Assembly (NCBI RefSeq): GCF_004005845.1 | Contig: NZ_SADE01000003.1 | Span: 620,001-684,000 of the forward strand | Length of the DNA: 64,000 bases | Reading direction: 5' to 3' | Source of the DNA: Hwanghaeella grinnelliae | GTDB lineage: Bacteria; Pseudomonadota; Alphaproteobacteria; UBA8366; Aestuariispiraceae | Shown here: positions 24,982 to 36,735 of the stretch, piece after piece | Numbering within the stretch: position 1 is the first letter of the stretch | Layout of the letters: every line of letters starts with the position of its first letter | Made by a program: the position numbers and the translations under genes | Notes under the pieces: model-generated | What the model was told of the DNA's origin: nothing | What the model saw: the letters and a program-made list of their open reading frames with translations, nothing else | The model's database searches: none

Positions 24982-26823
24982 TCACGGTTCCTTGAAACTG
25001 TTGTCCAAGGCGCGCGCGATCGGATAGACGAAGTAAGAGATCACCTTGCGTTTGCCGACGGTGATCTCGGCCGTTCCCGTCATGCCTGGAATCAATCGGA
25101 AATTCGCGGGCACGCTGCGTAAATCATGGTCGGTGATCTCAACCTTGGTCCGGTAGGTGGGTTCGGATTTTCCATCCTCGGCCTTGACCGTGTCCTCGCT
25201 GATCAAAAGGACCGTTCCTTGAAGGCTGCCGAATTTTTGGAAAGGCAAAGCGTCCAACTTTATCCGCACCGGATCGCCAACCTTAATCTGGCCGACGTCT
25301 TTCGGCGCAACACTCGCTTCCATCTGCAACTCGACATCCAATGGCACGATCGTAAAGAAAGGTTCGGCCTGCTGCACCACGGACCCGGCAGAGCGATCCG
25401 CAATGTCCAACACGATTCCACGGGCGGGCGCCGTCAGTGAAACAAGACTTTCGCGCCGTTCGGACTTCTTCAGTCTCTCTTCCATCTCCTGACGTTGACG
25501 ACGTGTCGCGGCAAGTTGTTGCGCGATCTGGGATCGATGGTTGCTGGTATAGGCTTCACGGTCCTGCCGTGCGGCTTCCCGTTCATGAATGAGGCGCTGA
25601 CGAACGCTCAACAGGCGGCGCTGCTCGCGCTCGACGGACAATCGCTGATTCTTGGCCACCAGGAACTGAACGCGCGACCCATATCCGTCGTTCATCAGCT
25701 TGATGCGCATGCCTTCGATCTCTCTCAGCACCTCAACCTGCTCAGCCATGTCTGCCGCGTCCTGCCGGTTGATGACGAGGTCCGCCTCAAGCTGGGAAAT
25801 TCGTTCGTTCCAGGATGACAGGGTCGCGACATATTCGGCGCGCCGCCGGTCGAAAATCTCCCTCTGCAAAAGATCAATCGCTGGAACGGGTGAAAAACTT
25901 TCCGGATCGCTTGCGGCAAGCTCCGCGGTCAACCGCCGCTCCTCAGCCGCAATGCTGATCAGGCTGGATCGGCTTGCCTGGAGGTCTGCTTCAGCAAAAG
26001 TCGCATCCAAAGTCGCCAACAACTGCCCTTCTTCGACGATGTCCCCTTCCTTCACCTCGATACCCAGGACCACCGCGGTTTCGACCGGCTGAACCAGGAT
26101 ATTGGGAACGGCCGGCGCGACCCGGCCCGGGGCGATGACCGCCGTATCAATTTCCGCAAAGGAAGCCCAGGTGAGTACCGAGAGAAAGAACCCGACGATC
26201 AGATACAAAGTGACCTTGGCGATCATCGGAAAACGGCTTTGTTCCAGTTCCACGGCATCCGGTCGGAACTCGGACAAATCGTCGGACGAGGAAAAGAACC
26301 GGCGCATCGCACCGATAGGCGAGAGCCGTTTTCGCAGGGGAGTGGGTGTCTCCCCCATATCACCGCCGCGCACCTTGTTCTCCAACTGGGATTTCAAGAA
26401 ATACTGATGCGCCATTCGGTCATTGGTTTCCCGCAAATTGCCGATCAGGCGATTCACGAGGTCGAGGGCGAATTGCGGGTCCTGTTCCATCCGGGCCAGG
26501 AATTCGGAAACGGCAAACCGCTCCACCACGACATCCGTTTCCGCGTAAGCGGAGGCACTGCGCGGCTTCCCGTCAATGATTCCCATTTCGCCGAACAATT
26601 CGCCCGCGTGGATGCGGCGCAGATGAACCTCGCCTTTCCCGGTATCCTTCGTCAGCCAGACCGTGCCGGAACGGATCAGATAGGCGACGTCGCTGTCCTC
26701 GCCTTCGAAGAAAAGATACTCTCCGGCGCCGAAGTGAACGCTGTTGTCCTTGCGTGGTCCTTGGACAGGTTGCAGATTGCCGCCTAGCGGGGTGATCTTC
26801 GCGGCGGGTTGTGTCGATGCCAT
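24982..26823 (-). CDS. HlyD-type secretion adaptor with N-terminal cyclic-nucleotide-binding domain
   Basis: A 613-residue fusion. Residues ~30-140 form a Crp-like cyclic-nucleotide-binding domain (FGAGEYLFFEGEDSDVAYLI) with a phosphate-binding cassette at about 74-91 (GELFGEMGIIDGKPRSAS) that keeps the Gly-Glu and Arg-Ser residues. A ~60-residue linker leads to one membrane helix at about 201-222. The remainder is a HlyD-type periplasmic adaptor: a lipoyl half (GIEVKEGDIVEEGQLLATLD), a long coiled-coil hairpin at ~285-450, the second lipoyl half, and a beta-barrel ending PGMTGTAEITVGKRKVISYFVYPI. The start is the ATG at 26821-26823, five bases after the ABC exporter stop. The cytosolic sensor could gate secretion; that is inference. 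Confidence 0.9.
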   Translation of the reverse strand: MASTQPAAKITPLGGNLQPVQGPRKDNSVHFGAGEYLFFEGEDSDVAYLIRSGTVWLTKDTGKGEVHLRRIHAGELFGEMGIIDGKPRSASAYAETDVVVERFAVSEFLARMEQDPQFALDLVNRLIGNLRETNDRMAHQYFLKSQLENKVRGGDMGETPTPLRKRLSPIGAMRRFFSSSDDLSEFRPDAVELEQSRFPMIAKVTLYLIVGFFLSVLTWASFAEIDTAVIAPGRVAPAVPNILVQPVETAVVLGIEVKEGDIVEEGQLLATLDATFAEADLQASRSSLISIAAEERRLTAELAASDPESFSPVPAIDLLQREIFDRRRAEYVATLSSWNERISQLEADLVINRQDAADMAEQVEVLREIEGMRIKLMNDGYGSRVQFLVAKNQRLSVEREQRRLLSVRQRLIHEREAARQDREAYTSNHRSQIAQQLAATRRQRQEMEERLKKSERRESLVSLTAPARGIVLDIADRSAGSVVQQAEPFFTIVPLDVELQMEASVAPKDVGQIKVGDPVRIKLDALPFQKFGSLQGTVLLISEDTVKAEDGKSEPTYRTKVEITDHDLRSVPANFRLIPGMTGTAEITVGKRKVISYFVYPIARALDNSFKEP

Positions 26824-26828
26824 ACCGC

Positions 26829-28973
26829 CTACTCCGCCGCCTGGTGGCGGTGGTAATCCACACTCTGCTGCTGCCAAAGGTGTCGGTACAGATCACAACC
26901 GGCCAGCAGATCTTCATGCGTCCCCGCACCCACGATCCTCCCTTCATCAACGACAATGATCTTGTCCATATTCATAAGGGCGGAAAGACGGTGGGATACG
27001 GTGATTACCGTTCGTCCCTCGGCAATACGGGCCATGTTCGCTTGAACGATGGCCTCGCTCTCCGGGTCCAGGGCGCTGGTTGCTTCGTCGAGGATCAAGA
27101 TACGCGGTTGCTTCAGTAGGGCCCGGGCAATGGCCAGCCGCTGCTTCTGGCCGCCGGAAAGGTTGGTCGCGCCCTCTTCCAGCGGCGTATCGTAGCCCTG
27201 CGGCAAGCGTTGAATGAATTCGTCGGCGCCGGCGAGACGCGCGGCAGCGACAATTTCAAAGAAGCTAGCCTCTGGACGGGTCGCGGCGATGTTCTCCTTG
27301 ACTGTCCCTTTGAACAGGAAGCTTTCCTGCAGCACGACCCCGGTATTCATCCGAAGATGTGCCAAATCAATTTCGCGCATGTCGGTACCGTCGATACAGA
27401 TCATCCCAGTCTGCGGCGCGTAGAGCCCCTGCAACAGACGGATCATGGTGCTCTTACCCGAGCCCGACCTGCCGACGACACCAAGCGACTGATCCACGGA
27501 CAATGTGAAGGAAACCCGGTCCAATGCGGGGGCGGCGGAATTGGGATACTTGAACCCGACCTCTTCGAAATCGATGCGGCCGTCGATTTCCGGGGTCAGT
27601 CCGCCGGACTTCGACTGCTCGGGGTTCTGGTTCATGACCTGACCGAGCATCCGGACGGAGAGAGCCGCCTGCTGATATTCATTTATCAAACCGACGGCAG
27701 CAATCAACGGACCGCTGACGCGCTGGGCCAGCATGTTGAAGGCAATGATCGCGCCAATCGTAAGGTCGCCCTGGAACACAAGCTGAACACCTACGAAAAG
27801 GATCGCGATCGACATCAAGGTTCCGAGGTATTTGGTAATGCCGCTGACCAATTGCGACAGCCTGCCGACGCCGATATGCATGGCAATGGTCCGCGCGGCG
27901 CGGCGATCCCATTCCGCACGACGGACCGGTTCAATCGCCAAGGCCTTGACGGTTTCCATCCCCGCGATCGTCTCTACAAGCATCGATTGGCGATCGCCTT
28001 CCGCCCTGTAGAGCGCCGATAGCCGGTCCTTGTAGCTGCCTTTGATCAGGAAACTGATGCCGGCGATCAATCCGGAAAACCCCAGAACGACCATGGTCAG
28101 GGCCGGGGAATAGAAGGTAAGGATCGGTATGTAGACCAGAAGCGCCAGACAATCGAGGAAGGTCAGAAACAGCCGACCAGTGAGGAATTCGCGCACCGTC
28201 GAGGTCTGCTGCATGTGTTTGGTCAGCGCCCCGGCGGAGGTCTTGCGAAAGAAATCGATCGGCAGCGATAACAGTTTTCCGAAGGTTCGTGTCGAAATGC
28301 GAATATCGATCTTGCTGGTTGCGTGAAGCAACAGCATGCCCCGCAGATACTCGATCACGGCGTTGAAGGTCACAGCCGCCACCACGGCGACGGCCAGAAC
28401 ATAAAGCGTGTCCAAGCTGTGATTGCCAATGACCTTGTCGAACGTGATCTGGAAGAAGATCGGCTGCGACAATGCAAAGAGATGCAGCAGCAAAGCGACG
28501 AAACCGACTTCCAGGAATACCGACTTGTGGCGCAGCATCTCCGGAATGAACCAGCGGAACCCGAAGGGCTGGTCCTCCTCGGTCAAACGCGCAGCCTGTT
28601 TCAGGAAAATAACCTGTCCGAGCCAGGCGTTTTCCAGTGTCATCTGATCGATGGGAATGACCTGGCCGGATTCCGCCAACGGATCGATGATCCTCACAAC
28701 AGGGTCATCACCGGACGCGTCATAGCCGGCCAGGATAACCCATTTGCCGTTCGTAAGTGGGCAGAGAACAGGATACGCGTCCCCGATATCCGCAAGGTTT
28801 CGCCACGACACGGACCGGAGACGGCCTTTCAATCCCAGGTCCTGGGCGATGCGAAGCAGTCTTTCGGGGGCAGGTTCCTCCGTCAGGGCGAAGTCATGCG
28901 TCAATCGTTCCGGCGTGACGTCTACGCCATGCCGCCGGGCCAGAAGCGCAAGGCATTGGATGGCCGTCTGCAG
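26829..28973 (-). CDS. HlyB-type type I secretion ABC exporter with C39-like domain
   Basis: An inner-membrane ABC exporter of 714 residues if started at the CTG at 28971-28973. The N-terminal C39-peptidase-like domain begins LQTAIQCLALLARRHGVDV and lacks the catalytic Cys, as in HlyB, so it should bind rather than cut substrate. Six membrane helices follow at about 150-430, then the ATPase: GRSGSGKST near 510, LSGGQKQRLAIARAL, ILILDEATSALD and a switch His (VSHRL). No ATG, GTG or TTG exists in frame upstream of the domain start; the CTG has GGAGG exactly seven bases before it. A TTG at 28902-28904 would remove the first helix of the C39-like domain. It lies between the small paralogues and the adaptor gene. 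Confidence 0.9.
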   Translation of the reverse strand: MQTAIQCLALLARRHGVDVTPERLTHDFALTEEPAPERLLRIAQDLGLKGRLRSVSWRNLADIGDAYPVLCPLTNGKWVILAGYDASGDDPVVRIIDPLAESGQVIPIDQMTLENAWLGQVIFLKQAARLTEEDQPFGFRWFIPEMLRHKSVFLEVGFVALLLHLFALSQPIFFQITFDKVIGNHSLDTLYVLAVAVVAAVTFNAVIEYLRGMLLLHATSKIDIRISTRTFGKLLSLPIDFFRKTSAGALTKHMQQTSTVREFLTGRLFLTFLDCLALLVYIPILTFYSPALTMVVLGFSGLIAGISFLIKGSYKDRLSALYRAEGDRQSMLVETIAGMETVKALAIEPVRRAEWDRRAARTIAMHIGVGRLSQLVSGITKYLGTLMSIAILFVGVQLVFQGDLTIGAIIAFNMLAQRVSGPLIAAVGLINEYQQAALSVRMLGQVMNQNPEQSKSGGLTPEIDGRIDFEEVGFKYPNSAAPALDRVSFTLSVDQSLGVVGRSGSGKSTMIRLLQGLYAPQTGMICIDGTDMREIDLAHLRMNTGVVLQESFLFKGTVKENIAATRPEASFFEIVAAARLAGADEFIQRLPQGYDTPLEEGATNLSGGQKQRLAIARALLKQPRILILDEATSALDPESEAIVQANMARIAEGRTVITVSHRLSALMNMDKIIVVDEGRIVGAGTHEDLLAGCDLYRHLWQQQSVDYHRHQAAE

Positions 28974-29035: not shown

Positions 29036-29284
29036 TTATTCAGCGGCCTGTTGTTCCGTCCGCGAGATCAGCCCCTTTTCCTCCATACCTTGCAACGTCT
29101 GGCTTAGGGCTCCGACAAGACGCATGAAGGCCCGGGGACTCATGACAAGCTGTTCGACAAATTCAGGCACCGGATTCCCTTCCTTGTCGCGGGTGGTCGG
29201 CGACATGGCGAGCAGGTCCATGCGAATGACGCCTTCGGACAAGCGGACTTCGCCAACACCGTCGATAAAGGTTTGATTAGCCAT
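29036..29284 (-). CDS. Small secretion-locus protein A, unknown family
   Basis: An 82-residue protein I cannot assign to a family. It begins with ANQTFIDGVGEVRLSEGVIRMDLLAMSP, contains a charged turn (RDKEGNP), and ends in a helical half (EFVEQLVMSPRAFMRLVGALSQTL and QGMEEKG). It has no signal peptide or membrane helix, so it is cytoplasmic unless secreted by the neighbouring exporter. By hand alignment about 38 of 67 positions match the next gene, so the pair arose by duplication. The layout (beta strands, then an EFV helix, then MSP and a helix ending in EEKG) recalls DUF3467-type proteins, but that is only an impression. It has a ribosome site (GGAG). Confidence 0.8.
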   Translation of the reverse strand: MANQTFIDGVGEVRLSEGVIRMDLLAMSPTTRDKEGNPVPEFVEQLVMSPRAFMRLVGALSQTLQGMEEKGLISRTEQQAAE

Positions 29285-29327: not shown

Positions 29328-29690
29328 TTAGAAGTTTGGTGAGCCGGACAAGACCTTGCGCTTTGGTCGGTCCTGCACGTCCGGGTCCGCAGGCTTCACG
29401 GCCAGATCCGCAGTCGTCGCGACACCGGGATCGACTTCGTCCCTGTGACCGTCAATATCCTGTGTGAAATAGCCCTTGTCCTGCATCGCCTTCATCGTAT
29501 TGCGCATGGTTTTCACCATGCGGATGAAACCGACCGGGGTCATGACGAGCTGCTGCACGAATTCCGTCGTCGGCACCCCATCTTCGTTCCTTAGCGTCGG
29601 GGACATGGCCAGCAGATCCATCCGGATCGCACCGTCCTGCATTCGGGTTTCCCCGACCCCATCGATAAAAATACGTTTATCCTTTGCCAT
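29328..29690 (-). CDS. Small secretion-locus protein B, paralogue of A
   Basis: A 120-residue protein sharing FIDGVGE, IRMDLLAMSPT, EFVQQLVMTP and the terminal KG region with the preceding small protein, plus a ~40-residue hydrophilic C-terminal tail rich in Asp, Pro and Lys (VKPADPDVQDRPKRK). It has no export signal. I start at the ATG at 29688-29690 because AGGGG is six bases upstream; a GTG one codon earlier is too close to that site. The gene lies 29 bases after the giant repeat protein, which suggests a chaperone, secretion-timing or immunity-like role for that protein; none of these is established. Confidence 0.8.
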   Translation of the reverse strand: MAKDKRIFIDGVGETRMQDGAIRMDLLAMSPTLRNEDGVPTTEFVQQLVMTPVGFIRMVKTMRNTMKAMQDKGYFTQDIDGHRDEVDPGVATTADLAVKPADPDVQDRPKRKVLSGSPNF

Positions 29691-29719
29691 CACGTACCCC
29701 TGGTATTGTGCATCGCCCG

Positions 29720-32700
29720 TTATGCATTTCCTTGAACGTTGAAAATATCGTCCGTTTGATCGTCTTGGACGGATTGGATGAACGCCACATCGACCGGCGC
29801 CGCATTGGCGATGCTTTCCGCTGACCCGTCGGACGCCACAACGGCGTCTTCCAACGCACTGGCCAAAGCTTCGAATGTTGCGTTCGAATCCGCTTGCAGG
29901 AGGTCCGCCAAGCTTGCGGACTTATCATCGGTTTCTGCAACGCGCTGAAAGATATCGGTTAGATCGAATTCGATGGTCTGATCCCCAAAGTCGATCTTCA
30001 GGTTTTCTATCGCGAAGTCCTCGCCGTCGAACATGTCGTTGATCAAGATGTTGCTGGTCGACCCTTCGCGACCGGTACTGATCGCGAAATTGTCGTCGCC
30101 AAAAAGGAAACCCTCATCCACGGTGAAGAGGATATCACCCAGGTCGAGTGCCGGTTCGGCCCCAAACTGATTGATGTTGAACAGGATCGTGTCTGTCCCG
30201 GTCTCCCCGGTATCGGTGATGATGTCCATCCCTTCGCCTTGGTAGAAGACATAGGTGTCGGACCCGTCACCGCCTGAGATGTTATCGACACCGAAGCCGG
30301 AAACGAAGATATCGTCTCCATCGCCGCCACGCGTTTCCGCCGCGCCGGCGGAGCCGAAGAAGCCGCCAAAGTCCTCTACGTCGAAGCCTTTGACCAGGGC
30401 GTCGAACTCCTCATCGTTCGGAAGGAAACCTTCGAACAGTCCGGTTGAGAATTCGTCCAACAAGTCGTTGAAGGCGTCGGTGATATAAGTCCCGGCATCG
30501 TCGAAACTGCCCTCCACGGCCTTGCCCGCGTTGGCGAGATCTCCGTCCGGATCAAGGAATGTATCCTGCAGCTTGCTGTCGATGCTGGCGAACATTTCAG
30601 AGATCTCGTCGCCCAACCCGGAAATCGTATCCGTGATTGTGTCGTTGAAGGCGTCCAGGAATGTGTCGATCGCCCCCTCGAACGTCTCGAAGGCAACGGT
30701 CAAATAGTCAGCGAACTCGGTGAAGATCCCGTAACCGATTTCCAGGAACAAGTCGTTCCCGGCATCGCCATCCGACGACGCCGTACCGCCGAGGTTGACG
30801 AGCACATCATCCCCTTCACCACCAAGCAGGACAGCTCCGCCCGCCATGTTGACCAGAAAATCATCGCCATCGCCGGCATAGACGAAACTGCCAAGCCCAC
30901 CGGTGTAGACATTATCATTGCCGTGCCCGGTGAAGATCAAACTGGCCGCGCCGGTCGCAACAACCGTATCGTTCCCGGCATCCTTGCTGGTATTCAGCAG
31001 ATCATCCAACTGTTGCAGGTAGCCGCCGTCGGCGGACTGATCCGTGAACAGTTCCGTATAGAGATCCTGCGCCGCCGTCGCGACGCCGGTAACGGTGTCA
31101 CCCACGAGGCTGGCCAGCGTTTTAACAGCCGCGCTCCTTATGCCGCCGGAGAAATCCGTGCTGACGATGCTGCCGAGTCCCGCGGAAATCACCGTGTCGT
31201 CTCCGGCCCCGCCCATCATCCAGTTAGCGGCGCCGAAACCGACAAGCACGTCGTTTCCATAGTCGCCGTTGATAATGTTCATCGCGCCGATACCGACGAC
31301 GAGGTCGGCCCCCGACCCACCGCTGAGGTTGTTCTGCACCCCAACGGCGACGATTTGATCGTCCCCTTGCATACCGAGCACTGTGGACGATTTCCCTACG
31401 GTGACGATGGTGTCGTCCCGTATTTCAAAGTCATTACGCGTGTATTCGATACCGGCAGCTTCAGCCTGTGCGCGCCGCTCATCGGATTCGTCATAGGTAC
31501 CCGCAAAACGGCCCAGGTCTTTCGAAGGGTCGCCGCCATCTGCGCCGAATAGGTTGCCCAACGTGTTTTTTGCGAAATCACCCAAGGCAACCAAGTCGAA
31601 TTGATCGCCCAGGATGATGTTTTTCGCCCCAACGGCGACGATCGTATCGTCGCCCTGTCCGCCGGAAACGATGTTCATTTCACCGACGGTCAGGACCACG
31701 TCGTTGCCATCGCCCGCAAGCGAGATATTCATCGACGGGATTGTGGTCTCACCACCCGAAAACGGTAGACCCAGGACATACATCGACTTTTGAAATGTGG
31801 ACTTGTCTGCCCATGATTTCTCAGTGGATAGAACCGACCCTTTCAAACCGACATTCAGGTTTGTGATGAAATCGTCACCCGCGCCGGTAACCGCTAGATT
31901 GGCTCCGAGTAATTGGGCGAGCCCGCCCGCCGATGTGAACAACCCGCCAAGGCCGTTGAGGTTCGGCGACAGGATCGACGCCGGGGTGGAGAGAATCCCC
32001 CCGATCATGAAGACACTGTCGTTGCCCGCGTCGGTGATCGCCACATTTGTTTGACCGACCGCCAGGATGTCGTCGTTACCGGCGCCGGTCGCAAGGACGT
32101 TCGCGCCCCCGGCCACCATGACGAGGTCGTCGCCTTCTTCCGCCACAACCACGTTCGCGCCGCCAAGCCCGATTACGACGTTGTCGCCGCCGCCGGCATG
32201 AATGAACTGCCCCGCGGCCGCGGAGTAGACCTGGTCGTCGCCGGCGCCAGTCGAAACCCCGCTGGCCAAGCCAACCAGATAGAGCGTGTCGTTGCCCTCA
32301 CCGGAATCGATATAGGAGCCGGCCGCCGCCGCGTGGATTGTGTCATTGCCGTCGCCGGTATCGATGCGCGCGCCGAAATTGGCGGCATAAACCACATCAT
32401 CCCCGCTGCCGGCCACGATATTCGCACCGGCAGCCAGGACATGGATTGTGTCGTTGCCGCTGCCGCCCAGGACATTCGCGCCGGTCGCGGTCAGATTAAT
32501 GATGTCGTCGCCGCTACCAGCGTCCAAATGCACGCCGACGGCACCGATCCATGCCGTATCGTTGCCGGAGCCCAATTTGACGTTTGCACCGACCGCCCCC
32601 ACGGTGACGGTGTCGTTGCCGGCACCGGAATCCACATCGGCACCCAGGGAATAGACGTCGATTTCGTCGTCACCGCCATACGTGTAGACGGACGCGTACG

Positions 32701-34588
32701 CGCCGTACGTTGAGACCTTGTCCCGGGAGGAGCCGTAGATATCAATATCCACATTCGCGCCATCCGCATCGACGTTGGTTCTACCGCCAACCCCGCCGTG
32801 TATCTGAACGCTTGTATCAAAGGAAAAACCGGCATCAACATTGATTCTGCTGTCATCGCCCGCCGTGATGGCGATATCCGACGTTCCGCCACCGGACGTA
32901 TCGACATCGATCGTGCTGCGGGCCCCGGAGACGACTTCGATGTCGTTCCCCTCGATTCCTAAGACGTCGGAGTCGATCTGAATGGTGTTGTCTGCGCCTG
33001 AAAGCTTGACCGTCGCGTCCTCGACGGAATCGTCACCCCAGCCCAGTTGAACGATGTTGTTGCCCTGTCGGTCCGCGTTGTAGGCCGTTCCGTCGATATA
33101 GACATCATCTGCATCCTCGATCCAAATCCGGCTGTCTTCCAGATTGGACATGTTCAGGGAGACATCGAAGGCATCGTCTATGTTGACGTTCTGATAGCGG
33201 GATTGCCCGCGGACGGTCAGGGAAACATCGTCTGCGTCGTCTATATCGAATGTATTGTACCAGCCCGCCGTCGCGATCGAGACGTCGTCTATATCTTCCA
33301 GGCGGAAGGTGTTGGCGCCTTCGGACGTGTTGATACGAACATCGTCCGCATCCGTAACCGTTACGTCATTGTGGAAGGAGTAGGCCTTGTCCCCCAATTC
33401 AAGACGCACGTCGTCGGCGTCGTTGATATCGATCTTGTTGTCACCGCCATAGATATTGAGGTCGATATCATCGGTGTCATCCAAGGTCAGGGTATTGCCG
33501 CCGGCGTCGATGTCGATCCAGGTATAGTCGGAATCGACGATGCGGATATCGTTGCCGCCCTCTGCCCCGTTGAAGTTCAGGCGGACGGACTCCTCTGAGA
33601 AGTCGTCTCCCTCCAACGTCTTCTGGTTCATGTCGATATTGACGCGGTTGTTGCCGTCATGGATCGTCGCATCGACGCTGTCGGCATCCCAGACCTTCAG
33701 ATAATTGCCGCCGTCACCACCGAAATTTACCCGCACGTCGTCCGCGTACCAAATGTCGACGTGGTTTTCACCCCAGCTGAAATCCACCTCCACGTTATCG
33801 TTATGGCCCGCATAGAGCGTGTTACCGGAGCCGGTGGCGTACACACTGACATCCAGGGAATCATATACTTCGATCTTGTTATTCGAATTGCCGTACTGGT
33901 CCATCTGGACCCGTACATCGTCGGAGTTCTTTACGTAAAAACGTCCGTTCCCCGCATCGGTATCGATCCAGACGTCGTCGGCATCGCGGACCTCGACATC
34001 GTCATACCCGCGTCCGCCCTGGAAATTGAGATTGACCGAGTTCTCGCGGGTATAGTCGCCATCCCAAAAATCCTGCTGCATATCGATGCGGACCGTGTTC
34101 CCACCGCCCCAAATTTCGGCGTTGACCGTATCCGCGCCTTTGATATCGACCCAGTTGTCGCCGGACCCGCCCAGATGGAGCGCCCCTATATCGTCGGCAT
34201 CGTAGATATTGACGGAATTTGCGCCCCAATCGGTCCAGATATCGACATCGTCGACATCCTGGAACCGCATCCAATTGCCGCCGCCAGTGGCATAGAAGCT
34301 GATATCGTCAGCGTCATAGACCTGGACGCTATTGTTGGAATTACCGTACTGATCAAAATTGAACCGGACGTCATAGGCATCCTCTACCTTGAACCATGAG
34401 CCGCCGGCATCGGTGTCGATCCAAACGTCACTGACATCGGTGATTTGGGCGCTCACGCCGCGGGAATTGTTGAAGTTGACCGAGACATTGCCCCAGTCCT
34501 TGATGCTGGCCCAGCTTGTGTTCCCCAGGGTCTCGTTGAAGTCCGCACCCCAAAAGCGGTCCCAGGAATCCGCGTGGTAGTTTGTCAC
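29720..34588 (-). CDS. Giant RTX-like repeat protein, predicted type I secretion substrate
   Basis: A 1622-residue, very acidic protein without a signal peptide. Residues ~50-540 consist of ~20-residue units centred on DADDV, likely a beta-solenoid. Within them a ~151-residue block is tandemly repeated (Trp56, Trp207 and Trp357 are equivalent). Residues ~650-860 are regular 18-residue units of the type GSGNDTIxVxAxGANIxx. Less regular GxGxD units run to ~1280, then a helical segment (~1285-1400), two canonical RTX nonapeptide rows at ~1420-1460 and a hemolysin-type domain ending FDLTDIFQ. The last ~60 residues (Ala/Asp/Val-rich, no Cys) fit a C-terminal type I signal. It starts with GTG (GGAG seven bases upstream). 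It is the first gene of the secretion operon; the role may be adhesion, matrix or S-layer-like. Confidence 0.92.
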   Translation of the reverse strand: MTNYHADSWDRFWGADFNETLGNTSWASIKDWGNVSVNFNNSRGVSAQITDVSDVWIDTDAGGSWFKVEDAYDVRFNFDQYGNSNNSVQVYDADDISFYATGGGNWMRFQDVDDVDIWTDWGANSVNIYDADDIGALHLGGSGDNWVDIKGADTVNAEIWGGGNTVRIDMQQDFWDGDYTRENSVNLNFQGGRGYDDVEVRDADDVWIDTDAGNGRFYVKNSDDVRVQMDQYGNSNNKIEVYDSLDVSVYATGSGNTLYAGHNDNVEVDFSWGENHVDIWYADDVRVNFGGDGGNYLKVWDADSVDATIHDGNNRVNIDMNQKTLEGDDFSEESVRLNFNGAEGGNDIRIVDSDYTWIDIDAGGNTLTLDDTDDIDLNIYGGDNKIDINDADDVRLELGDKAYSFHNDVTVTDADDVRINTSEGANTFRLEDIDDVSIATAGWYNTFDIDDADDVSLTVRGQSRYQNVNIDDAFDVSLNMSNLEDSRIWIEDADDVYIDGTAYNADRQGNNIVQLGWGDDSVEDATVKLSGADNTIQIDSDVLGIEGNDIEVVSGARSTIDVDTSGGGTSDIAITAGDDSRINVDAGFSFDTSVQIHGGVGGRTNVDADGANVDIDIYGSSRDKVSTYGAYASVYTYGGDDEIDVYSLGADVDSGAGNDTVTVGAVGANVKLGSGNDTAWIGAVGVHLDAGSGDDIINLTATGANVLGGSGNDTIHVLAAGANIVAGSGDDVVYAANFGARIDTGDGNDTIHAAAAGSYIDSGEGNDTLYLVGLASGVSTGAGDDQVYSAAAGQFIHAGGGDNVVIGLGGANVVVAEEGDDLVMVAGGANVLATGAGNDDILAVGQTNVAITDAGNDSVFMIGGILSTPASILSPNLNGLGGLFTSAGGLAQLLGANLAVTGAGDDFITNLNVGLKGSVLSTEKSWADKSTFQKSMYVLGLPFSGGETTIPSMNISLAGDGNDVVLTVGEMNIVSGGQGDDTIVAVGAKNIILGDQFDLVALGDFAKNTLGNLFGADGGDPSKDLGRFAGTYDESDERRAQAEAAGIEYTRNDFEIRDDTIVTVGKSSTVLGMQGDDQIVAVGVQNNLSGGSGADLVVGIGAMNIINGDYGNDVLVGFGAANWMMGGAGDDTVISAGLGSIVSTDFSGGIRSAAVKTLASLVGDTVTGVATAAQDLYTELFTDQSADGGYLQQLDDLLNTSKDAGNDTVVATGAASLIFTGHGNDNVYTGGLGSFVYAGDGDDFLVNMAGGAVLLGGEGDDVLVNLGGTASSDGDAGNDLFLEIGYGIFTEFADYLTVAFETFEGAIDTFLDAFNDTITDTISGLGDEISEMFASIDSKLQDTFLDPDGDLANAGKAVEGSFDDAGTYITDAFNDLLDEFSTGLFEGFLPNDEEFDALVKGFDVEDFGGFFGSAGAAETRGGDGDDIFVSGFGVDNISGGDGSDTYVFYQGEGMDIITDTGETGTDTILFNINQFGAEPALDLGDILFTVDEGFLFGDDNFAISTGREGSTSNILINDMFDGEDFAIENLKIDFGDQTIEFDLTDIFQRVAETDDKSASLADLLQADSNATFEALASALEDAVVASDGSAESIANAAPVDVAFIQSVQDDQTDDIFNVQGNA
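32009..32635 (-). repeat. 54-bp-period RTX-like coding repeats
   Basis: About eleven consecutive 18-residue units encode alternating rows: one carries GxGxD (GSGNDT, GSGDD, GDGNDT, GEGNDT, GAGDD) and the other is calcium-motif-free and Ala/Gly-rich (AVGANV, AAGANI, NFGARI). Canonical RTX has a calcium motif in every nine residues, so this is a half-loaded variant. Confidence 0.8.
33524..34426 (-). repeat. Tandem ~450-bp coding repeat in the giant protein gene
   Basis: Two adjacent blocks encode residues 55-205 (33974-34426) and 206-355 (33524-33973). Both begin VWIDTDAG, continue with DVR.. and DQYGNSNN, and share the order ATG-GN, WG-N-V-IY-ADD, NTVRIDM/NRVNIDM and ENSVNLNF/EESVRLNF. A third, shorter and more diverged copy begins at residue 356 (TWIDIDAGGN). 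The period is 150-151 residues. Confidence 0.85.
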
Positions 34589-34953
34589 CTTATGTCTCCT
34601 GCGCGTGTCGTCACGGGCGTTTGATCCGTACTAGGCGACGATGCACGGGATCGGTGGCCCGGCTCTTCGTGATATACGTCAACCTTTTGCGACAGAATTC
34701 AGACCCGAACAGTCACATCCCTTGCCCGTGTTCCGCAGCAGATGCGGAACAAAAGATGCGACCGCCCTCCTTCGGCGAAAACTTCGGGCCGGAGATTACT
34801 CAAATAGCCGGAATAACGAACATATTTCCGACAAGTTGACCGATATGCGCGCAAAGTTGTCCCCTTCGTGACCGCTTTCGCCTTTCTCGATCTGGGCAAG
34901 CCGGTACACTCACAGCAGGAAACAGCCGCACAATTCGACTCGGGTTGAGGCAT
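34589..34953. promoter_or_regulatory. Divergent control region of the secretion operon and its regulator
   Basis: This 365-base region separates the two divergent starts. It contains a perfect 9-bp inverted repeat, TGTTCCGCA-GCAGA-TGCGGAACA, at 34729-34751, which has no T-run on either side and so looks like an operator rather than a terminator. An imperfect dyad (CGGAATA ... TATTTCCG) lies near 34809-34830. No single promoter pair stood out on either strand. Confidence 0.5.
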
Positions 34954-36735
34954 ATGAATAGCGTCATGTTGCGCCCCATCCCGGTCGCGATCGCCGTAAG
35001 CTTGCTGGTTTTGATCGGCTTTTGGGCCGTTGAAGGAAAAAGTGAGCAGTCACCCCCACTGTGCGGGCAGTCTATTGCCGAAACACCGACGGCGACTGTC
35101 TTCGACCATAACTCGGTACAGGAGTTGCTTTTCCTCCGTGCCGACTTTCTGCTTGATACGAGCGGGGCGGAACGGCCCGACGACCTTGACGGCAAAGATT
35201 TCCTTAAGTCACCCTGCCTCGACCGTTATCCGGCCCCGGCACCGGGAGCAGCGCTTTGGCTCCGATTCAGTATCCAAAACGACACGAACACGGCGCGCGA
35301 CTGGCGGATCGGCTTCAGCGAATATCTTTACGGTTCGACAATTCTTTACCGTGACGATCCGCAATCCGAACCGCTAGCGGCTGCGGGCCGAAGCGTTCCA
35401 CGGCAGGAACGGACATTCATCAGCCTCCGCCCTCAGCTTCCCCTCTCACTCGCGGCGGGTGAAAAACGGACCTACTATCTGCGGATCGCCGAAACCTGGG
35501 ATGTGGCCGTTACTCCCTACGTCATGAGTCCGGCCACAGCATATACCCAGAACGAATTCGCCAGCCTGGTATCTGCTCTTTTCCTAGGGTTTCTGGCAGC
35601 TACGCTCGTCATCAGCCTGGTGCTGTTCCGGCATGCGGACGTTACCAACTACCAATTCTATTCCCTTTACGTCATCAGCATGCTGGTTTCCTCCCTGCTC
35701 TACGATGGATGGTTCCACCATTTGACGGAGTCCGGCTTGGATTTTGTTCTGATGGTGCGGGCGATCGAGGCGCTCTTTGCGCTTTGCGCTGTCGGATATG
35801 TTCTGTTCTGCCAAAACATCCTGACCTTGACCACGGATCGGCCCAAATGGCCGCGATTTTTCTCGTTAGGCCTTGGTGCCCTCACGGTCAGCGCGGTCTT
35901 TGCCGTCCTCGATCCTTGGATTTTCGACCTGCCACTCACTCTCGTCATCCTGTTCCTGCAACTCGGGGTACTGGTAGCGGCCGTCATGCGCATCAAGGAC
36001 GGTATTCCGGAAGCTAAACCCGTCGCCGCTTCAGCGGCTTCCCTGTTTATCCTGATCACAATTGGGCACATTCCTTATATATTGACGTTCCACCTGGACA
36101 CAGCGGACGCGTCCACAAAACTCGCTTTTGAACAAATGAGCGAAGTGGCCTTTTATGCAGCCGTGTTGGGTGAAGCTATTTTCATGGGGATCGCGATCGC
36201 GGTGCGGGTCAACTCCCTGCAAGCGCAACGGCTTGCCGCAACGGCTGAGGCAAACGCGCTCAAGCACGAAGCCCAGGCAATAAGAGCAACCCTCGACGAG
36301 GCCAGAAGAGTGTCCGGAAGCCGTATCGCGGCATTGGAAACACGCTTGATAGAAACCGCGAACGATACGGAAAAAGTGTCGTTGGCCCCGGCGGATAGCC
36401 GCTTCCTCGACTGGGCCAAGGAGCTGGTGCAAGCAAATATCGGCGATCCCGCCTTCGGAGTCCGTCAGCTTTCGGCCGCCTTGGGTACCAGTGAGAAGAC
36501 ATTGGGGCGGCGGTTGAAACAGTCCCTCGGTCTGACCCCGGTCGCCTTTATCCGGCAAGAGCGCCTGAACCGTGCGCGGGACATGCTCTTGATCCGGCAA
36601 TTCAATACAGTGGCAGAGACCGCACATGCGGTCGGCTTTTCCAGCACGGGCCATTTCGCAAAACTATATCGCGAGGCATTTGGTGAGACGCCAAATGCGA
36701 CGCTTCGCGCGGCAATACGGGACCATCAAGACTAA
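34954..36735 (+). CDS. 7TMR-DISM sensor fused to AraC-type DNA-binding domain
   Basis: A 593-residue membrane regulator (numbers are from the first in-frame codon, a TTG at 34945). Residues ~12-30 are a signal/anchor. A periplasmic 7TMR-DISMED2-like beta domain covers ~45-195 (LWLRFSIQNDT, WRIGFSEYLYGSTILYRD). Seven hydrophobic helices lie at ~205-422, then a coiled coil at ~425-470, then an AraC/XylS two-helix-turn-helix domain at ~487-590 (FGVRQLSAALGTSEKTLGRRLKQSLGLTPVAFIRQERLNRAR and AHAVGFSSTGHFAKLYREAFGETP). 7TMR-DISM modules usually carry kinase or GGDEF outputs; an AraC output makes it a one-component membrane-bound regulator. It likely controls the divergent secretion operon. The start is uncertain; the ATG at 34954 is preferred over the TTG. 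Confidence 0.85.
   Translation: MNSVMLRPIPVAIAVSLLVLIGFWAVEGKSEQSPPLCGQSIAETPTATVFDHNSVQELLFLRADFLLDTSGAERPDDLDGKDFLKSPCLDRYPAPAPGAALWLRFSIQNDTNTARDWRIGFSEYLYGSTILYRDDPQSEPLAAAGRSVPRQERTFISLRPQLPLSLAAGEKRTYYLRIAETWDVAVTPYVMSPATAYTQNEFASLVSALFLGFLAATLVISLVLFRHADVTNYQFYSLYVISMLVSSLLYDGWFHHLTESGLDFVLMVRAIEALFALCAVGYVLFCQNILTLTTDRPKWPRFFSLGLGALTVSAVFAVLDPWIFDLPLTLVILFLQLGVLVAAVMRIKDGIPEAKPVAASAASLFILITIGHIPYILTFHLDTADASTKLAFEQMSEVAFYAAVLGEAIFMGIAIAVRVNSLQAQRLAATAEANALKHEAQAIRATLDEARRVSGSRIAALETRLIETANDTEKVSLAPADSRFLDWAKELVQANIGDPAFGVRQLSAALGTSEKTLGRRLKQSLGLTPVAFIRQERLNRARDMLLIRQFNTVAETAHAVGFSSTGHFAKLYREAFGETPNATLRAAIRDHQD

Follow-up and report, generated by a model that had tools for sequence, protein, structure and literature searches.

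A seven-transmembrane receptor fused to an AraC-type DNA-binding domain and a predicted direct-repeat operator linking it to surface-protein genes in Alphaproteobacteria

The gene at positions 34954–36735 (forward strand) of a 64,000-nucleotide stretch of Hwanghaeella grinnelliae DNA, the window of this study, raises a simple question: which DNA is read by a protein that seems to be a membrane receptor at one end and a transcription factor at the other? A preliminary description of the locus had read the chain as a periplasmic 7TMR-DISMED2-like domain, seven membrane helices, a coiled coil, and an AraC-type domain with two helix-turn-helix (HTH) motifs, and had reasoned, rightly, that an AraC domain tied to the membrane can reach its DNA only there, drawing a comparison with CadC and ToxR.

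As for the domain identities, profile searches and structural modeling agree with that reading. One intact open reading frame runs from ATG to stop and encodes 593 aa; an in-frame TTG at 34945, if used as the start, would make the receptor three residues longer. The three relevant Pfam domains all exceed their curated cut-offs (22, 29, and 33.6 bits, respectively). 7TMR-DISMED2 (PF07696) matches residues 64–190 (35143–35523, forward strand, as for every part of this gene) with an E-value of 3.9e-11 and 43.5 bits, 7TMR-DISM_7TM (PF07695) matches residues 205–416 (35566–36201; E 8.1e-11, 42.7 bits), and HTH_18 matches residues 506–585 (E 3.4e-21, 75.8 bits) within an AraC-type two-HTH DNA-binding domain spanning residues 480–593 (36391–36732), for which the PDB sequence 3mn2 is also a match (E 5e-12). 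An AlphaFold2 model, produced with 20 relatives as input (mean pLDDT 81.7, pTM 0.63), displays the same order, with a β domain (residues 48–191), seven membrane helices, a single long helix (residues 386–471; 36109–36366), and an AraC-type domain composed of seven helices (residues 480–592). In this model, TM7 runs without a break into the predicted coiled coil, so that one continuous helix leads from the membrane to the DNA-binding side, a layout that is predicted to be conserved across the family. The periplasmic domain is similar in fold to that of RetS (3jyb, Foldseek E 2.7e-4), and the AraC domain to 3oio (Z 15.6 over 112 residues). Structure comparison also finds a likeness of the 7TM part to GPCR-like folds, which at the level of the model is a shared arrangement and no evidence of descent. 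Two periplasmic cysteines, C37 and C88 (codons 35062–35064 and 35215–35217), are conserved in the family, one of them invariant and one nearly so; their conservation raises the possibility of a disulfide and, with it, of a redox or folding switch.

Relatives of this protein are not readily found. Used alone as a query, it retrieved none in a first scan of genome contigs, and the whole protein gave a full-length match in only 1 of 97 relatives of the window's genome. An alignment of four family members was needed for a second scan, which identified 18 full-length relatives in named genomes (Pelagibius, Denitrobaculum, other Kiloniellaceae, Labrenzia, Octadecabacter, Roseicyclus, other Rhodobacteraceae, and one Rhizobiaceae-group bacterium), and a separate family search revealed two further loci. 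The same domain architecture is thus present at about 20 loci in several alphaproteobacterial families, at about 30% identity. Among 385 genomes sampled evenly from the class, 2 contain the family and 54 contain PF07695 as such; the earlier view that an AraC output is rare next to the usual kinase or GGDEF outputs is right. No relatives were detected on plasmids at E 1e-15. In a tree, the window's receptor sits on a long branch, and its placement among the relatives is not settled.

The unusual domain combination might have come from a frame error or an assembly join of two unrelated genes, the former being a risk that the preliminary description had itself pointed out. However, because intact, full-length relatives with the same domain order recur in unrelated assemblies, this explanation is ruled out, its residual probability being negligible. 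On sequence evidence, the DISM-AraC fusion is real, old (as judged by the roughly 30% identity among relatives), rare, and patchy. The literature searched on 7TMR-DISM and AraC, which left aside the 2003 paper defining 7TMR-DISM and most subscription papers, does not describe this architecture, and it reports no large number of proteins built in this way for which another target is already established. An earlier mention may exist.

Next, we looked for DNA shared by the receptor loci. BLAST comparison of upstream regions revealed a common TTTGTCCGAAATGAG, which is one half of a direct repeat, TTTGnCC-N14-TTTGTCC. The family consensus can be written TTTGTCC-N14-TTTGTCCGAAATG, with an AraC-like 21-bp period, and this conserved direct repeat is the predicted operator of the receptor. 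When loci were scanned with position matrices from which the locus under test and its close relatives had been left out, a clear top site emerged in nearly every locus, with scores mostly of 13–43 and background maxima mostly below 7. The best site in locus L077 is weak (10.5) and lies about 130 bp upstream of a neighboring gene with ABC_membrane and cNMP-binding domains, in the usual orientation. The spacing is specific, too. TTGnC...TTGTC pairs 21 bp apart number 29 and occur in all 17 non-redundant loci, whereas other spacings yield 4.0 pairs on average and never more than 10, making 21 bp (start to start) the unique favored half-site distance. AraC half-sites at araI are known to repeat with this same period, which amounts to two DNA turns. 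Some PEP-CTERM operators in loci L141, L142, and L156 seem to have a third half-site another 21 bp on.

In the window, position matrices and the genome-wide model described below both place the predicted operator at 34835–34862 (forward strand), with the sequence GTTGACC-N14-GTTGTCC. It is among the weaker sites, with GTTG in place of TTTG and a degenerate downstream box. The divergent promoter region had already been proposed as the place to look, and this holds, but the element then singled out does not. That element is a perfect 9-bp inverted repeat with a 5-bp spacer (TGTTCCGCA-gcaga-TGCGGAACA, 34729–34751, unstranded), and the direct repeat lies about 85 bp nearer the receptor gene. Nothing corresponding to the palindrome is present upstream of the relatives, and the genome contains it in perfect form only once; when three mismatches are allowed, it yields 8 matches per strand as against 7 for a reversed-pattern control. 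It is probably not the operator, and is perhaps the site of another regulator.

How closely does the operator follow the receptor? A genome-wide model, based on sequence only and containing sites from the nine positive genomes, detects a single strong site in the genome of the window (25.4 bits, E 4.6e-5; the runner-up scores 12.8 bits), and this site adjoins the receptor gene. With its own sequence removed from the model, the site is still the best in the genome, at 18.0 bits, but with an E-value of 0.011 the window operator is convincing largely through its position beside the receptor gene. Sites at E ≤ 2e-4 are found in 9 of 9 receptor genomes. Three Pelagibius-type genomes and genome G022 contain one strong site each, and the four Denitrobaculum-group genomes contain 9–11 each at E ≤ 0.0032. 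By comparison, none of 40 receptor-free controls, which are related to the receptor genomes at the genus, family, order, or class level, has a site below E 0.02. A class-wide run over 385 genomes found sites below E 1e-3 only in the receptor-bearing genome G374; single weak matches (E 0.001–0.02) in many receptor-free genomes are expected by chance, given several hundred genomes and rough E-values. Three lines of support do not depend on model training: the scan with matrices lacking the tested locus, the comparison of spacings, and the dispersed sites.

This co-occurrence bears on whether the direct repeat might be read by another, soluble AraC-type regulator, with the membrane receptor merely located beside it. 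AraC proteins are numerous in receptor genomes (the window's genome has 11 other matches), and the half-sites of different family members can resemble each other. However, the sites track the receptor even when the comparison includes a receptor-free genome of the same genus, the only strong site in the window's genome is next to the receptor gene, and we saw no further gene common to the receptor loci. We therefore regard a soluble reader as very improbable and the receptor itself as the likely reader.

The presumed target in the window is the divergent gene at 29720–34588 (reverse strand), which encodes a 1622-aa repeat protein. Its start is separated from the first half-site by 248 bp, and the ATG of the receptor gene by 118 bp; the corresponding distances in the Pelagibius group are about 214–236 bp (giant gene) and 98 bp (receptor gene). 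The protein is RTX-like and probably a type I secretion substrate. Its match to Pfam HemolysinCabind is weak (18.5 bits, under the cut-off of 23), and all NCBIfam calcium-repeat models fall below cut-off. The protein, only weakly RTX-like, has no cysteine, 14% Asp, and many "DADD" repeats, and it may be an unusual β-solenoid. Genes for a type I secretion system are nearby on the same strand: an ABC transporter (26829–28904; Pfam ABC_membrane and ABC_tran) and an HlyD-type membrane fusion protein (24982–26877) in which Pfam identifies an N-terminal cyclic-nucleotide-binding domain. Such domains recur in L077, on the ABC-type transporter encoded next to the receptor, and in L144, on a SulP transporter whose gene is linked to an operator. 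Two small tandem paralogues (FIDGVGE...RMDLLAMSPT...; 29036–29284 and 29328–29693, reverse strand) separate the RTX-like gene from the ABC transporter gene; they have no Pfam match above cut-off and are perhaps accessory to the secretion system.

Receptor neighbors in other lineages are often large exported proteins of mutually unrelated kinds. RTX occurs with a PPC domain in the Pelagibius group, by itself in L069, and as RTX-Hint in one Rhodobacteraceae genome; Labrenzia has an autotransporter, Octadecabacter and another Rhodobacteraceae genome have Big_12 repeat proteins, and the Denitrobaculum group has PEP-CTERM proteins. Most sites are located about 40–300 bp upstream of the start of a surface- or secreted-protein gene in a fixed orientation, the gene reading away from the site on its GGACAAA side; in L070 and L100, the site is found at the receptor gene only. 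The PEP-CTERM link extends beyond the receptor loci. For 41 sites in the four Denitrobaculum-group genomes, a PEP-CTERM C-terminus is encoded 520–860 bp off in the predicted direction for 22 and in the opposite direction for none. The chance expectation is about 0.25% per site, and the binomial p is near 1e-11 per genome, although these genomes are related and not independent. Further operator targets have, by eye, a PEP-CTERM-like tail under the listed score. Other operator-linked genes do not encode obvious surface proteins: the SulP transporter with its cNMP-binding domain, a protein of 85 aa, and, in genome G423, a C58 (YopT-type) peptidase and an Exo_endo_phos protein (L155 and L152) as well as two others. 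The best explanation of these sequence patterns is a spread of the operator, in those relatives that have two such receptors, to PEP-CTERM (exosortase-sorted) surface-protein genes at scattered positions. In the literature searched on PEP-CTERM and AraC, which excluded most subscription papers, neither such a regulator nor this operator is described.

Might the receptor repress these genes, or anchor their loci at the membrane for co-transcriptional export, instead of activating them? Orientation and distance alone cannot separate an activator from a repressor, and most targets are exported, so that proximity to the membrane could help. However, the sites lie upstream of start codons at the distances and in the single orientation typical of activators, members of the AraC family are mostly activators, and we found no sigma-70-like promoter (and no terminator) between the two divergent genes of the window, which is consistent with dependence on an activator. 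Repression or anchoring is thus unlikely, and activation by the receptor is the reading that we retain.

From the features established by computation (the architecture, the operator with its spacing and orientation, its co-occurrence with the receptor, and the nature of the target genes), we infer physical binding of the operator, dimerization, activation over repression, and binding while the protein is in the membrane. The periplasmic DISMED2 domain would sense an envelope or extracellular cue, and the signal would cross the seven membrane helices and then the unbroken TM7/coiled-coil helix, and would determine how two AraC-type domains are arranged on the inner side of the membrane. Head to tail, the two domains would bind TTTGTCC half-sites 21 bp apart at the membrane and most likely activate surface-protein genes with promoters on the GGACAAA side. 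The binding of direct repeats by AraC-family proteins is due to the structural independence of their DNA-binding domains from the dimerization part (PMC9723621). In the window, the receptor would control the divergent 1622-aa RTX-like gene; its own gene might be controlled through that site too. A calcium link, combining LadS-type calcium sensing with an RTX target, is speculation.

Alternatively, the receptor could be cleaved after sensing, and a soluble coiled-coil/AraC fragment could then bind the operator as a free cytoplasmic protein. TcpP is a known case of a transmembrane regulator that undergoes regulated degradation (PMC11323476), and in the model residues 468–477, a linker right before the DNA-binding domain, have a pLDDT below 50. 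Yet this linker varies in length and sequence, with no conserved cleavage motif noticed, and TM7 and the coiled coil form one predicted helix with a family-conserved layout, as for a mechanical relay. Moreover, CadC is a documented case of diffusion and capture, in which a regulator still in the membrane finds its DNA fast enough without release (PMC7888679). Release is therefore doubtful, if somewhat less so than repression or anchoring, and we consider it probable that the intact protein is a one-component 7TM receptor/transcription factor that would act on surface-protein genes through the predicted direct-repeat operator.

The conserved family operator and the gene set of the DISM-AraC receptors are new here. 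Two well-known modules, a 7TMR-DISM receptor and an AraC activator, are joined into the shortest possible trans-membrane signal path, which gains a defined, predicted DNA target and gene set; the tie of the operator to surface- and secreted-protein genes suggests a direct line from the cell exterior to the genes that build its surface. With somewhat less confidence, we favor the broader view that these proteins form an undescribed family of GPCR-like 7TM receptors/transcription factors dedicated to the surface architecture of marine alphaproteobacteria, in which different lineages have joined one operator to export systems that have nothing in common: type I (RTX) and type V (autotransporter) secretion, Ig-like repeat proteins, and PEP-CTERM/exosortase. 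As a multi-pass system with local and dispersed operators, the family could serve as a model for how a membrane-locked protein finds its DNA, and receptor plus 28-bp operator, movable as a unit, could report on what DISMED2 domains sense.

Compared with known systems, the receptor is, by sequence, a member of the 7TMR-DISM group through both sensory domains and of the AraC family through its output domain. Like RetS, LadS, NicD, and RgsP, it has a periplasmic DISMED2 domain, a DISM 7TM unit (PF07695 over cut-off), and a fused C-terminal intracellular module. However, where the common outputs of these receptors are kinase or GGDEF/EAL domains, its output is a DNA-binding domain in the same chain, and no phosphorelay or second messenger is needed. 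RetS, LadS, and NicD also affect surface-attached growth (PMC6107284). The receptor shares with the AraC/XylS family a two-HTH domain, some 100 aa long and well over the HTH_18 cut-off, but it lacks a cupin-like or other soluble ligand-binding domain, its sensor being a 7TM membrane receptor. AraC/XylS proteins bind asymmetric or direct-repeat sites in target promoters, and the predicted operator that tracks the receptor gene is a direct repeat with a 21-bp period. The YSIRK-targeted surface antigen regulator (TIGR04094) is also AraC-type and named for surface-antigen genes, but it matches only the DNA-binding part (25.7 bits, against a cut-off of 200) and has no 7TM receptor in the matched region. 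As for the comparison with CadC and ToxR made at the outset, the principle stands, for these proteins and TcpP likewise unite sensing, a membrane part, and DNA binding in a single chain, and their DNA must meet the membrane. The layout does not: CadC, ToxR, and TcpP have one membrane helix, an N-terminal OmpR-type winged HTH, and a C-terminal periplasmic domain, whereas the receptor has seven helices and the reverse order, with a C-terminal AraC domain.

Finally, PrsK/PrsR/PrsT is the precedent for PEP-CTERM genes, many of which have a conserved DNA motif upstream that was paired with the regulator by phylogenetic profile (Haft 2006, PMC1569441). PrsK/PrsR is a sigma-54 two-component system with a motif different from the receptor operator, and Pfam detects neither a histidine kinase nor a sigma-54 response regulator domain in the receptor. 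Haft et al. anticipated that more PEP-CTERM regulators and motifs were still to be discovered (PMC1569441). Judged by its operator-linked genes, the receptor family is a candidate for such a further regulator, one that offers a testable answer to that point and, if true, would constitute a second PEP-CTERM regulatory system beside PrsK/PrsR.
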